A DNA stretch of 64,000 nucleotides, from contig CACAEJ010000008.1 of the NCBI GenBank assembly GCA_902531515.1, positions 1 through 64,000 of the forward strand. Reading direction: 5' to 3'. The first letter of the stretch is position 1; every line of letters begins with the position of its first letter. Shown here piece after piece: positions 42,818 to 47,704 of the stretch. The notes beneath the pieces were generated by a model. The model searched no databases. It was not told where the DNA came from and was given only the letters and a program-made list of their open reading frames with translations. Made by a program: the position numbers and the translations under genes. This DNA comes from an uncultured Pseudohongiella sp. (GTDB lineage: Bacteria > Pseudomonadota > Gammaproteobacteria > Pseudomonadales > Pseudohongiellaceae).

Positions 42818-43084
42818 CTAATGAATATTCGTATCGACAGATTTGAGAGCGCGGCATTGCGTCCTCGCACGATCTCTAATGGATAAAGTGCCACGCCAAT
42901 GCTTGCATAAGCGTTCACAGGTGTTGACTAAACTCGATTGTGATGACTTCGGATGAGTTTGAAGCATTTCTAGATGCTGCAAAATCGCTTTTCCCACTAG
43001 CGGATCTTGATCCATGGTGTATCTAGTTAACAAGAACAGGAGTGTTGATACGAGAACATCGTTGTCTTCTGATTGCGGCTTCAC
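42818..43084 (-). CDS. Small unknown protein downstream of a Fur-box-like site
   Basis: 88 aa ORF beginning about 44 bp downstream of the box; co-directional with 42596..42802. Confidence 0.6.
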   Translation of the reverse strand: MKPQSEDNDVLVSTLLFLLTRYTMDQDPLVGKAILQHLEMLQTHPKSSQSSLVNTCERLCKHWRGTLSIRDRARTQCRALKSVDTNIH

Positions 43085-43127: not shown

Positions 43128-43146
43128 GCGAATGATAATCATTTGC
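43128..43146 (-). promoter_or_regulatory. Fur-box-like operator
   Basis: GCGAATGATAATCATTTGC on + strand, core AATGATAATCATT close to the GATAATGATAATCATTATC consensus. Confidence 0.8.
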
Positions 43147-43175: not shown

Positions 43176-44132
43176 TTAATGAGAGCGCTGAGCGGTAAGA
43201 CGGAGCAATTCGACTTGGTTTGCAACCCAGAGGTTAACATTTTTATGGGGTAACAGCCCCAATTTGTCTGCTCGGTAGTCCAAACCTTCTAATACTCTGG
43301 CATAGGGTCCGAAACCATGCACTCTGAAAGGTACTACCAATGTCTTCAGCCCATCGCTGCTGGCAGCTTCCATAAACGATCGAATATTACTCTCGGCCTC
43401 ACCTCTTTTCGCAAACCAATCCTCACGCAGTGTGAACACTTTAATTTCATTCAATCCTAGGATGGACTTTGCCGTCTCTGTGCGCTCCGCTATTTTCTCA
43501 ACCCACCTAGCATCTTCCTCGTCAGAACCTGTACCGTGGGCAATCACAATAGCGACTTCGCTCTCAGGATCTCTACTCAAGCCCGCAATTCTGCTTACCA
43601 AAACATCATCCATTTCAGCGGCATCCGCCAAGCCATCTTCGCTTATAAAAAAGTTCAAGTCTGTTTCAATTTTCCAAAATCCCATGGGCATAAACATTCC
43701 AGGCTGCGAAGTTTTATCAACTTCCTCCTTGTTTGGCGCACCTTCTGCTGTTCCGAGTATTTGCTGGGTCCTCTCATACCAACTTTCACCAGACACAAAC
43801 ATTCTCACAACACCGACATCCTCCACGCCCCGACTCTCGAGTCGTCTCACTGACTCTTCAATACTCCCCGCATCAGCCATACCAAATGCTATTTCAACTG
43901 GGTACTTATCGCCTATCTCCGAGGTCGCCTGTTGCACAGCCTCATTCCACTCCGAGGTACCACCATGCGCCATTAATAGTAATCCAAATTTAGACCCGTT
44001 AGCCTGAAATTGGTCCGGCGCGGTATTCTGTGTCGTCGAACACGACTGAATCAAAATTAAACAGGATATTAAGAGGGATAACCGATACCTTATTTGATTC
44101 TGAAAATACTGAAATATTGGGTTCTTGTTCAC
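43176..44132 (-). CDS. CbiX/SirB-like (class II chelatase fold) lipoprotein
   Basis: Lipoprotein signal ...LLISCLILIQSCSTTQ; duplicated xxAHGxxxxxx segments (FGLLLMAHGGTSEWNEAV, VAIVIAHGTGSDEEDARW), VVPFRVHGFGPYARVLEGLDYR. Confidence 0.7.
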   Translation of the reverse strand: MNKNPIFQYFQNQIRYRLSLLISCLILIQSCSTTQNTAPDQFQANGSKFGLLLMAHGGTSEWNEAVQQATSEIGDKYPVEIAFGMADAGSIEESVRRLESRGVEDVGVVRMFVSGESWYERTQQILGTAEGAPNKEEVDKTSQPGMFMPMGFWKIETDLNFFISEDGLADAAEMDDVLVSRIAGLSRDPESEVAIVIAHGTGSDEEDARWVEKIAERTETAKSILGLNEIKVFTLREDWFAKRGEAESNIRSFMEAASSDGLKTLVVPFRVHGFGPYARVLEGLDYRADKLGLLPHKNVNLWVANQVELLRLTAQRSH

Positions 44133-44143
44133 AGTGCATATAC

Positions 44144-46387
44144 TCAGAATTCAATATTTAACCCGACGCGGATATTGGTTCCGGGCTGGTGGTTGTTTAG
44201 AATAGTATCCGCCGAGGAAACCTTATTCAAGCCCTGAATACTTTGCCATATGGCATATTCCTCGTCGAATATATTAAAGATACCTGCCCGGAGAGATACT
44301 GCGCTCCCTAGCTGCAAGTCTCCAACCACATCAACGATCGCATATCCCTCGGCGTCAGTAACAGTATCCGATGATACTTTATCCTTATCAGCAATGACCG
44401 TCCACAGAAGTTCTCCTCCCCAATTGCCACTGCTATGATCGTACCTAAGCCCGGTCACTATATTGAGTGGATCTATCGTATCAAGGTGTGCGCCTGTACC
44501 TGCATTTTCACCGCGCGCATAGGCCACGGAAGACCTTATCCTCCATTGATTCGTTAAATACAAGAAGGCAGTCAATTCCGCGCCCTGAATCTCAACGTCG
44601 CTTATATTCTGGTTTTGGTAAAGCGAGAGGCTTCCACTACGTCCAATAAAATTGCTCGATATGAAGTCATCATAATAATTCTTGAATACAGATAAGCTAA
44701 GGAAGGCATTTTCATAATCAGCGCGCACTCCCAACTCGAAACTGTCGCTGGTTTCAGCATCAATATCTGGATTCGGCACCACAGCGTATCTATAACCGAG
44801 GTTGACGAACGCCTGATTGGACTCGTTAAAATTAGGTGGACGGTAACCTTCTGCATATTGAGCAAAAAGGGAATAAGTTTCATCAATATCGTACAGAGCA
44901 CCCAAACTGAGTGATACTTCTCCTTCTTCAAAATCTTCAACCGGATAACCAAATCCAGCTACCTGATTGGTTCCATCAAGCAGAGCATCTACTGTAGCAT
45001 CCATCTCATAACGGTCATACCGGACTCCAGGAATGAGAGTGAGCGGGCTATCGCCTATTTGAATTTCATCCTGGAAGTAAATTCCCAATCTTCTAGTGCT
45101 CGTATCAGGGAAGGTCTTGTTTGGAAAGACTTCAGAAGGCGCCATAGGGAATGCTGAAATACGCCGCGAAATTGTGCCTGTTGACACTTCTGTATCAAAC
45201 CGGTCCCTCGGTCTCTCTGTTTCAGTTTCGTCCAGATTGAAACCATAAACAAAATTATGAGTTAGGTACCCTGAGTTGAGAGATTTCCTAAAATTGAGAT
45301 TTACCGCGACTGTCTCCTGATTGAAGCCAAAGGTAGTATCTCGGATAGCTGCTGCCCCTCCCATAGAACGTGGGTTTCGAGGGTTGACGAAAGAAAAGCT
45401 TGTCCTATCCTGAAGAGTTCTCTGCGTAGAGTCGGTATCATGGAAATTTACCAAAACCTGCAAGTCATCAAAGAGTCCTGACTCACGCTCCAACTGATAT
45501 TCTAGACCTATCCTTTCGCGATCCACCTCATCAAAACCAAGAGACTTTGATACTGAGCGCCCCAAGTCTGATAGAAGGTTAAAATCTCTCTCCTCAACAA
45601 ATGATTCAAAACTGACTGCCAAGCTTTGACTGTCTGAGATGTCCCAAAACCCCTTAAGGAGAATCCCTTGGGTATCACCATCCTGCGGATTCACACGTCC
45701 GCGACCATTGACCTCATGCTCCTCGAAATTCCGTTGGGTGACCTGTGCTACAAGGCCAAAATCTCCGTTTTGAAAGGCAGCGGTAGCCCCGCCTTTGACT
45801 TGGTCATCCGCGTCTGAAGCCGAGCTTCGAAGACCAAAATAACTGCCGCTGTCACTCCCAACGTAGTCGCGCGCATTCTTAGTTGTAAAAATTACCGCGC
45901 CACCCATGGCATCAGCACCATATAGAACAGAGGAAGGCCCTCGCACAATTTGGACGCTCTGCAGGTTATCCATCTCAAAGGAGTCTTTTCCATTCCCGTA
46001 GTAAATGTCGCTGCCACGCACGCCATCAACAACGTGGAGGACTCTGTTGCCGCCTATACCACGGATTGTGAAGCCCTGGTTGCCACCTCGAGCATTTGTA
46101 GTCATGGATACCCCGGGCTGAAAGCGGGCGAGGTCGTCTAAGTCATCAACCATTTCCTTTTCAATATTTTCCACGGTGATTATTGACACCGTCCCAGCAA
46201 TATTCTCTATAGTCCGCGGCTGACGAGTCGCTGAAATCGTTAGCTCTTCGATACGATTAGTAGAAGCTTCTTGGGCAGCAATCCAAGAGGGAATTAAAGA
46301 CAGTCCGCTAACCAGAAAAATATTTCTTAAATTTTTAAACGCGCAAAAAAGTCTTACTTCTATATTAGAAATAGATTCAAAGAACAT
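44144..46387 (-). CDS. TonB-dependent heme/hemoglobin-type receptor; likely start MFFESIS
   Basis: TonB box-like EELTISATRQPRTIENI; plug VQIVRGPSSVLYGADAMGGAVIF; YRPPNFNE...VVPNPDIDAETSDSFELG equivalent to FRAP/NPNL heme-receptor region; hemP directly upstream. Confidence 0.9.
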   Translation of the reverse strand: MFFESISNIEVRLFCAFKNLRNIFLVSGLSLIPSWIAAQEASTNRIEELTISATRQPRTIENIAGTVSIITVENIEKEMVDDLDDLARFQPGVSMTTNARGGNQGFTIRGIGGNRVLHVVDGVRGSDIYYGNGKDSFEMDNLQSVQIVRGPSSVLYGADAMGGAVIFTTKNARDYVGSDSGSYFGLRSSASDADDQVKGGATAAFQNGDFGLVAQVTQRNFEEHEVNGRGRVNPQDGDTQGILLKGFWDISDSQSLAVSFESFVEERDFNLLSDLGRSVSKSLGFDEVDRERIGLEYQLERESGLFDDLQVLVNFHDTDSTQRTLQDRTSFSFVNPRNPRSMGGAAAIRDTTFGFNQETVAVNLNFRKSLNSGYLTHNFVYGFNLDETETERPRDRFDTEVSTGTISRRISAFPMAPSEVFPNKTFPDTSTRRLGIYFQDEIQIGDSPLTLIPGVRYDRYEMDATVDALLDGTNQVAGFGYPVEDFEEGEVSLSLGALYDIDETYSLFAQYAEGYRPPNFNESNQAFVNLGYRYAVVPNPDIDAETSDSFELGVRADYENAFLSLSVFKNYYDDFISSNFIGRSGSLSLYQNQNISDVEIQGAELTAFLYLTNQWRIRSSVAYARGENAGTGAHLDTIDPLNIVTGLRYDHSSGNWGGELLWTVIADKDKVSSDTVTDAEGYAIVDVVGDLQLGSAVSLRAGIFNIFDEEYAIWQSIQGLNKVSSADTILNNHQPGTNIRVGLNIEF

Positions 46388-46478
46388 AGACACCTCTTCC
46401 AAAGAGAGTCTGGCTTGCTGCCTGGATCGTGCGTGGGTGGCTGGCGTGACTCGGGACTAAATGGAACCTTATAAAGGT

Positions 46479-46643
46479 TTATTTCGTTAATATAAGCTTG
46501 TTATTAGCTGTAATTCTGAGCGTGTATTCGCTGCCGGCATGTTGAATGAACAATTTTTTAGGCTCACCAAGTAATTGCTTACTCGAGATCTTCTGCGGTA
46601 AGCGCTTGCGCAGAGTCAACTTTGTTTGACCTGGTTCATTCAT
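46479..46643 (-). CDS. hemP: Hemin uptake protein HemP (54 aa, not in the supplied ORF track)
   Basis: Translation MNEPGQTKLTLRKRLPQKISSKQLLGEPKKLFIQHAGSEYTLRITANNKLILTK with the HemP C-terminal signature (I-x-H-x-G-x-x-Y-x-LR-x-T-x-x-x-KLILTK). Confidence 0.92.
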   Translation of the reverse strand: MNEPGQTKLTLRKRLPQKISSKQLLGEPKKLFIQHAGSEYTLRITANNKLILTK

Positions 46644-46740
46644 TACAGTCTGCCAACAAACCTAGCTTCATTGAAGCGAGAACTAAAAACTAAGCCTATA
46701 GTTAATTAAGCCCTTATTGTAAATCCATCTAGCTTTTAAC

Positions 46741-46759
46741 GCAAATGATAATTATTTGC
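46741..46759 (-). promoter_or_regulatory. Fur-box-like operator upstream of hemP
   Basis: GCAAATGATAATTATTTGC, imperfect palindrome; TATAAT on the - strand immediately upstream (46772-46767). Confidence 0.8.
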
Positions 46760-46867
46760 ATTTAAAATTATACAAATTTTGACATTTGTAGATTGCTTTC
46801 CTCGTTCATGCCAGAATCTAAACATCTGAATTCTTTAGAACTAGTTGACCCGAAGGCAAATCAATAG

Positions 46868-47704
46868 ATGTTGAATCTGATCTTAAAAGCCATGCTCACT
46901 GCTGGAGTTTGGGCTTCTGTTTTCTTGACACCCTTCTCTTTCGCGGACAATCAAGAGCCTAAGGCGCTGTCACTCCAGCAAATTTTAGAGGGACAGCATC
47001 GCAATCCACAAAGCATAGCCAGGAATGGTTCGCGGCATCCATTTGAAACGCTTGGTTTTTTTGGCCTACGGCGCAACATGACACTAATTGAAATCGGGCC
47101 CTCAGGAGGCTGGTATACTGAAATCCTGGCTCCCTATATGCGCGATCATGGCCGCTACTACGGAGCTCATTTTTCTCCCAACACTACAAATAGTTTTCAG
47201 AGAAGAAACCTTGAAGAATTCGAAACCAAACTTACCGCTAACCCCTCACTATATGGCCGAGCTGTAATTCGTCACCTGCAGCCACCTAACGAAATAGCCA
47301 TAGGACCAGAAGGCGGGGCCGACATAGCCCTTACCTTTCGCAATGTTCATAACTGGATGTCTCGTGGGTTAGAGCAAGAATTCTTTGATGCATTTTTTGA
47401 AAATCTCAAGCCAGGTGGAATCTTAGGCGTAGTCGAACATAGGGCTCCCGACACTGCAGTTCGTCAAGAAATGATCGACACTGGATATGTTAGTGAGGCC
47501 TATGTGAAACAAATTGCTAAATCTGCAGGCTTTGATTTTGTTGCTTCCTCAGAAATAAACGGAAACCAAAAGGACACCAAAGACCATCCCGAAGGTGTCT
47601 GGACTCTTCCTCCTAATTTTCGGGCAGGTGAAGTCGATCAGGACAAATATGCTGCAATCGGCGAATCCGACAGAATGACTCTAAAATTTAGAAAACCCGA
47701 GTAA
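46868..47704 (+). CDS. Exported class I SAM-dependent methyltransferase-like protein
   Basis: Signal peptide; FFGLRRNMTLIEIGPSGGWYTEILAPYMRDHGRYYGAHF; GGADIALTFRNVHNWM. Confidence 0.75.
   Translation: MLNLILKAMLTAGVWASVFLTPFSFADNQEPKALSLQQILEGQHRNPQSIARNGSRHPFETLGFFGLRRNMTLIEIGPSGGWYTEILAPYMRDHGRYYGAHFSPNTTNSFQRRNLEEFETKLTANPSLYGRAVIRHLQPPNEIAIGPEGGADIALTFRNVHNWMSRGLEQEFFDAFFENLKPGGILGVVEHRAPDTAVRQEMIDTGYVSEAYVKQIAKSAGFDFVASSEINGNQKDTKDHPEGVWTLPPNFRAGEVDQDKYAAIGESDRMTLKFRKPE

Follow-up and report, generated by a model that had tools for sequence, protein, structure and literature searches.

The closest described relatives of the locus reported here belong to the HemP/HmuP/ChuP family (PF10636), represented by ChuP of Chromobacterium violaceum and HmuP of Ensifer meliloti. 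In operons of the ChuP/HmuP type hemP comes first, under a Fur box, and is followed by a TonB heme receptor gene whose leader contains an HmuP-responsive element (HPRE), the presumed site at which HemP/HmuP proteins act on the mRNAs of heme receptors (PMC9131926). ChuP, a heme-binding protein, increases the transcript abundance of two HPRE-bearing receptor genes, has no action on the promoter of its own operon and showed no DNA binding in EMSA (PMC9131926). How HemP acts is disputed between species, both as to sign (an activator in most versus a repressor) and as to target (DNA versus RNA): HmuP of B. japonicum and HemP of B. multivorans figure as DNA-binding activators among the works cited in PMC9131926, and HemP of Stenotrophomonas maltophilia has been reported as a repressor (PMC9241770). 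The latter protein is encoded in the operon hemP-hemA-smlt0796-smlt0797, in which no HPRE has been recognised (PMC9241770). In Porphyromonas gingivalis the TonB receptor IhtA is paired with a chelatase-fold lipoprotein, IhtB, which is thought to take iron out of heme and is reported not to be Fur-regulated (PMC10913741).

The window, by which we mean the whole 64,000-nucleotide stretch of DNA analysed here (contig CACAEJ010000008.1 of an uncultured, probably marine Pseudohongiella sp.), contains a locus that shares traits with each of these systems (Table 1). Its HemP matches the same profile as ChuP and HmuP over the whole model, and the layout of the operon is also theirs, with hemP first, a Fur box, and then a TonB heme receptor gene with an HPRE leader; it differs in the short N-terminus of the protein (54 aa in all) and in having, instead of hemSTUV, a gene for a chelatase-fold lipoprotein. 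With the S. maltophilia operon it has in common, at the level of operon layout, the gammaproteobacterial host, the Fur-boxed hemP-receptor arrangement, the absence of ABC importer genes from the operon and the presence of periplasmic products downstream, whereas the reported repression by HemP and the lack of a recognised HPRE set the S. maltophilia operon apart. The pairing of a TonB receptor with a chelatase-fold lipoprotein recalls IhtA/IhtB, although the window operon, unlike IhtB, is proposed here to be under Fur control. Together with sister genomes that have neither hemP nor HPRE, the locus offers a clean comparative handle on the disputed action of HemP.

Table 1. Features of the hemP-receptor-lipoprotein locus, with coordinates in the window and the basis of each assignment
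Feature	Position	Strand	Basis
Fur-like box, palindrome GCAAATAATTATCATTTGC	46741..46759		14/19 to the 19-bp consensus; predicted
Promoter-like pair TTGCGT-N17-TACAAT	46716..46744	-	read by eye; putative
hemP, 54 aa	46479..46643	-	PF10636, YdiE 4ynx, pN/pS
GAGTC, 5' arm of a putative short closing stem around the HPRE	46448..46452	-	pairs with GACTC 46410-46406
HmuP-responsive element (HPRE), GCCAGCCACCCACGCACGATCCAGGCAGCAAGCCAG, two CCAGCCA-type half sites	46410..46445	-	motif match
GACTC, 3' arm of the possible stem closing the HPRE	46406..46410	-	pairs with GAGTC
AGAGG, Shine-Dalgarno-like	46393..46397	-	5 bases before ATG 46387
TonB-dependent heme/hemoglobin receptor (PhuR/HemR type)	44144..46387	-	TIGR01786, TIGR01785, PhuR 8the
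Lipoprotein, class II chelatase (CbiX/SirB/CbiK/ferrochelatase) fold	43176..44132	-	structure model; PF01903 sub-threshold

An earlier note on this DNA had read the 54-codon ORF as an unannotated hemP gene; the coordinates and the translation were both as it gave them, and the search against the Pfam HemP profile that it called for returned PF10636 with 60.5 bits (E 1.4e-16, cut-off 25), the match running over residues 19-54 and over positions 2-37 of the 37 in the profile. A phmmer search with the protein recovered the solved E. coli-type HemP homologue YdiE (4ynx, E 5.8e-6) and also 2loj and 2jra. Against the related loci L009, L010 and L011 the gene has 6/3, 19/8 and 18/9 synonymous/non-synonymous codon changes respectively, with start and stop conserved; since pN/pS is 0.14-0.16, indicative of purifying selection, and the changes fall mostly at codon position 3, it is a selected coding sequence. 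On sequence grounds the ORF is a true hemP gene, and it illustrates that short regulatory genes beside heme receptors can go unnoticed. As gene calling this finding is correct and ordinary; what is added lies in the HPRE in this group, the joint loss of HPRE and hemP, and the use of the HPRE outside heme uptake. The gene is the single hemP copy in the 1.92-Mb draft genome, a count that is provisional because the genome is about 67% complete. One contig, PBXX01000012.1, apparently present as both L006 and L010, keeps hemP and the HPRE intact, but its receptor breaks off after about 56 codons and runs on into the end of the peroxiredoxin gene; this is either a natural deletion or a join made during assembly.

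The order Fur-like box, hemP, TonB receptor given by the same note is also borne out: the receptor ORF comes next on the same strand, and a palindrome matching 14/19 consensus positions stands where the predicted box had been placed, 97 bases upstream of hemP. It is one of six Fur-like sites in the 64-kb window that reach at least 14/19; the canonical Fur consensus with up to 3 mismatches gave no match, the box being a shorter palindrome. A Fur-like box is kept 93-152 bases upstream of hemP in L009, L011, L015 and L018, and a 13/19 site is found upstream of hemP in L012, L013 and L023, which makes seven relatives with a box altogether; the hemP-receptor-lipoprotein order is kept in the same seven. 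The -35 of the promoter-like pair overlaps the Fur box; the pair agrees with 8/12 consensus positions, falls under the threshold of the promoter scan and is kept in L149. It is from the Fur-like box that iron regulation of the receptor is predicted.

Between hemP and the receptor the leader contains an element that the earlier note had missed, namely the bipartite repeat GCCAGCCA-N19-GCAAGCCAG, which ends 22 bases before the receptor ATG. Judged by its two direct repeats of the CCAGCC type and its place in the receptor leader, it matches the HPRE known from E. meliloti and C. violaceum (PMC9131926). The HPRE of chuR (CCCGCAAGCCAGCCGACAGCCAGCCAGCG, at -26 from the ATG; PMC9131926) likewise has direct CCAGCC repeats in the receptor leader, both elements lying about 20-25 bases before the start codon; in the window the half sites are farther apart (19-base spacer) and the host group is gammaproteobacterial. 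The element is unique in the window, with 0 occurrences in 100 shuffles, and is the sole match to the exact pattern in the 1.9-Mb draft genome, where no other uses of the HPRE were found with that pattern. We propose that the locus is probably a Fur-controlled heme-uptake operon of the order hemP - HPRE - TonB heme receptor - chelatase-fold lipoprotein, with HemP acting on the HPRE. Under iron shortage Fur would leave its box and a single transcript would be made from the promoter before hemP; HemP, translated first, would then act on the HPRE in the receptor leader, most likely at the RNA level and perhaps in a heme-bound form, and expression of the receptor would rise. Heme taken in by the receptor would reach the periplasm, and there the lipoprotein may retain it or remove its iron. 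That HemP would activate, as ChuP does, is suggested by the HPRE that the locus carries; homologues have been reported as DNA-binding activators or as a repressor, so that both the sign and the level of the action proposed here are putative.

The association of the HPRE with hemP extends beyond the window. Among 119 hemP loci, a set that includes some contigs present in two collections, an HPRE directly follows hemP in 66, the counts for the reversed leader and for the opposite strand being 0/119 each. The loci L179-L196 (several genomes, same order) are mostly without an HPRE, several of them having terminator-like sequence next. In L020, L040, L056, L071 and L081, and likewise in the class-sample loci L111, L120 and L123, the strand opposite to hemP carries an HPRE-like element that lies upstream of hemP and before a divergent gene; for L056 and L081 that strand encodes a TonB receptor. 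Across 232 sampled genomes of the class, 14 exact HPREs lay no more than 3.5 kb from hemP against about 0.06 expected. The class as grouped by GTDB also includes the former betaproteobacteria, so that the firm gammaproteobacterial evidence is that of this genus and family and of named gammaproteobacterial MAGs. A passage of a 2022 paper, citing Amarelle 2019, gives the HPRE as absent in gammaproteobacteria (PMC9241770), an absence that our sequence data contradict as stated.

Where it was said to be missing, the HPRE in fact co-varies with hemP. Within the genus it stands before the receptor in 6/6 genomes that have hemP and a receptor orthologue and in 0/4 of those without hemP; these four genomes are 92-98% complete, their receptors show about 55% identity, and in 4/4 a Fur-like box lies directly upstream of the receptor. 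The three hemP-less receptors that were placed on the tree form one clade, and the joint loss of hemP and HPRE therefore counts as one event, suggestive as it is. The loci are moreover related by descent, and both circumstances would suit a reading in which the HPRE is no more than a conserved signal of the leader or for processing, HemP acts elsewhere and the association reflects descent of the operon. We consider this improbable, as the motif persists across Alphaproteobacteria, Gammaproteobacteria and Desulfuromonadia although the spacer and the downstream gene change, and as it is found before divergent neighbours of hemP too.

HemP could also activate transcription by binding DNA, either at the promoter that precedes hemP or at one within the HPRE, and not act on the message. 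Such activation is what has been reported for the B. multivorans and B. japonicum proteins in the works cited by PMC9131926, our motif search would be the same for a DNA as for an RNA motif, and a general RNA structure was not found. We regard this as unlikely on account of the position of the HPRE, downstream of hemP and just before the receptor start, of its occurrence in one orientation only, as RNA would predict, and of the behaviour of ChuP in EMSA. The single orientation favours the proposed action of HemP on RNA, without proving it.

As to structure, an Rfam search of 46300-46900 gave no match, and neither the spacer, the tail nor a closing stem provided a general RNA structure that holds across elements. 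A hairpin after the HPRE, hiding the receptor Shine-Dalgarno, was seen by eye in several relatives and was rejected as a general mechanism; the 40-base tail after the HPRE folds no better than shuffles in 62 elements (mean z +0.18). A hairpin in the HPRE spacer was rejected as a general feature, having a mean z of only -0.9 over 52 and of about 0 in the window; it is strong in L109 (z -6.8), L111 (z -4.5) and L088, unlike the window. The window leader folds with z +0.67. The arms of the possible closing stem vary compatibly in close relatives, and in the discovery set pairing in the fixed register scored 1.35 against 0.65-0.89 for slid registers and 0.98 for shuffled sequences (p 1e-4); an independent Desulfuromonadia set gave no support (0.89 versus 0.84, p 0.43). 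The GAGTC/GACTC stem is at most a feature of this family only, and the HPRE is most aptly regarded as a linear bipartite motif with a fixed orientation.

The receptor passes the curated cut-offs of two NCBIfam heme/hemoglobin receptor models, with 378 bits for TIGR01786 (cut-off 324) and 344 bits for TIGR01785 (cut-off 317), and by far its best solved relative is PhuR of Pseudomonas aeruginosa (8the, E 2.9e-74). Its start is likely to be the ATG at 46387, with its AGAGG, rather than the TTG at 46402. In a genome of the same genus (G002) genes for HemS, HmuT, HmuU and HmuV (HmuT and HmuV assigned by reading) stand directly upstream of hemP-receptor-lipoprotein, which ties the locus to heme. It had been claimed in the note that the hemP context identifies the ligand of the receptor; this was too strong, given that hemP occurs in Desulfuromonadia without a TonB receptor and that the hemP copies L179-L196 mostly have terminator-like sequence and no HPRE behind them. 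The receptor models, PhuR and the HemS-HmuTUV neighbours make a better basis for assigning heme than hemP does. At what we take to be the axial heme-ligand positions of PhuR (His, Tyr) and ShuA (H86), the receptor has Tyr135 aligned with ShuA H86 and Gly and Asn at the PhuR positions, in loops of uncertain alignment; because the aligned residues are not histidine, heme coordination may differ. A canonical heme oxygenase (PF01126) was found in none of ten genomes of the genus. Both observations would fit a ligand other than heme, for instance a siderophore or a different metallated tetrapyrrole, hemP then being a general regulator of iron, and so would the presence of hemP and HPRE beside feoB and the control of a siderophore receptor by ChuP (PMC9131926). 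We give little credence to such a ligand in view of the two models over cut-off, the distance by which PhuR leads the solved relatives and the HemSTUV cluster of G002, and we retain heme as the predicted ligand.

The lipoprotein gene follows the receptor both in relatives with hemP and in those without it. Its product has a lipobox, LIQSC, read by eye. A single-sequence structure model was too poor for use (pLDDT 49) and was replaced by an alignment-based one (pLDDT 85), which matches SirB, periplasmic CbiK, ferrochelatases and FetB of P. gingivalis, the last being, we presume, the same protein as IhtB. The fold match to FetB (9b86) is distant (E 4.6e-5, about 10% identity, TM 0.47); sequence searches with the lipoprotein gave no FetB/IhtB match and only weak matches to CbiX-type chelatases. 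Because PF01903 reached 19.4 bits, under its cut-off of 22, and the similarity is one of fold only, we call the protein chelatase-like and not a member of the class II chelatases. His56, His199 and His296 are invariant in 13 sequences. The modelled fold makes it a candidate for a periplasmic heme-iron handling partner of the receptor. In a Nitrosomonas MAG (L038) a distant relative of the lipoprotein adjoins a TonB receptor and hemP.

The combination of hemP and HPRE is also found outside heme uptake. In the class of Desulfuromonadia (L203-L224 with L021 and L057 among the loci) 19/25 hemP loci have an HPRE, and the controls 0. In the two of these loci that were read in detail a DUF3793 gene comes first, then hemP, then a gene for an outer-membrane-type protein of PF13557, which is not of the TonB type; one locus has a Fur-family gene close by, the other feoB. 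As hemP and its HPRE here precede a gene for a non-TonB outer-membrane protein, the pair is not enough to name a heme receptor, and in another phylum the element turns up again ahead of a gene that does not encode a receptor. This raises the possibility, for and against which we hold our judgement evenly balanced, that HemP and the HPRE belong together as a single ancient module controlling genes for iron uptake at the outer membrane in more than one phylum, beyond heme receptors and beyond alpha- and betaproteobacteria, the controlled genes being here those of a heme receptor and a chelatase-fold lipoprotein and in Desulfuromonadia that of a porin-like protein in a feo cluster.

The best match to the Fur box in the window is a different site, GCGAATGATAATCATTTGC (15/19, 43128-43146), upstream of an 88-aa ORF (42818-43084). 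This ORF has no Pfam or NCBIfam match, is conserved in L009 and L011 and weakly in L151, and possibly encodes a new iron-regulated small protein.
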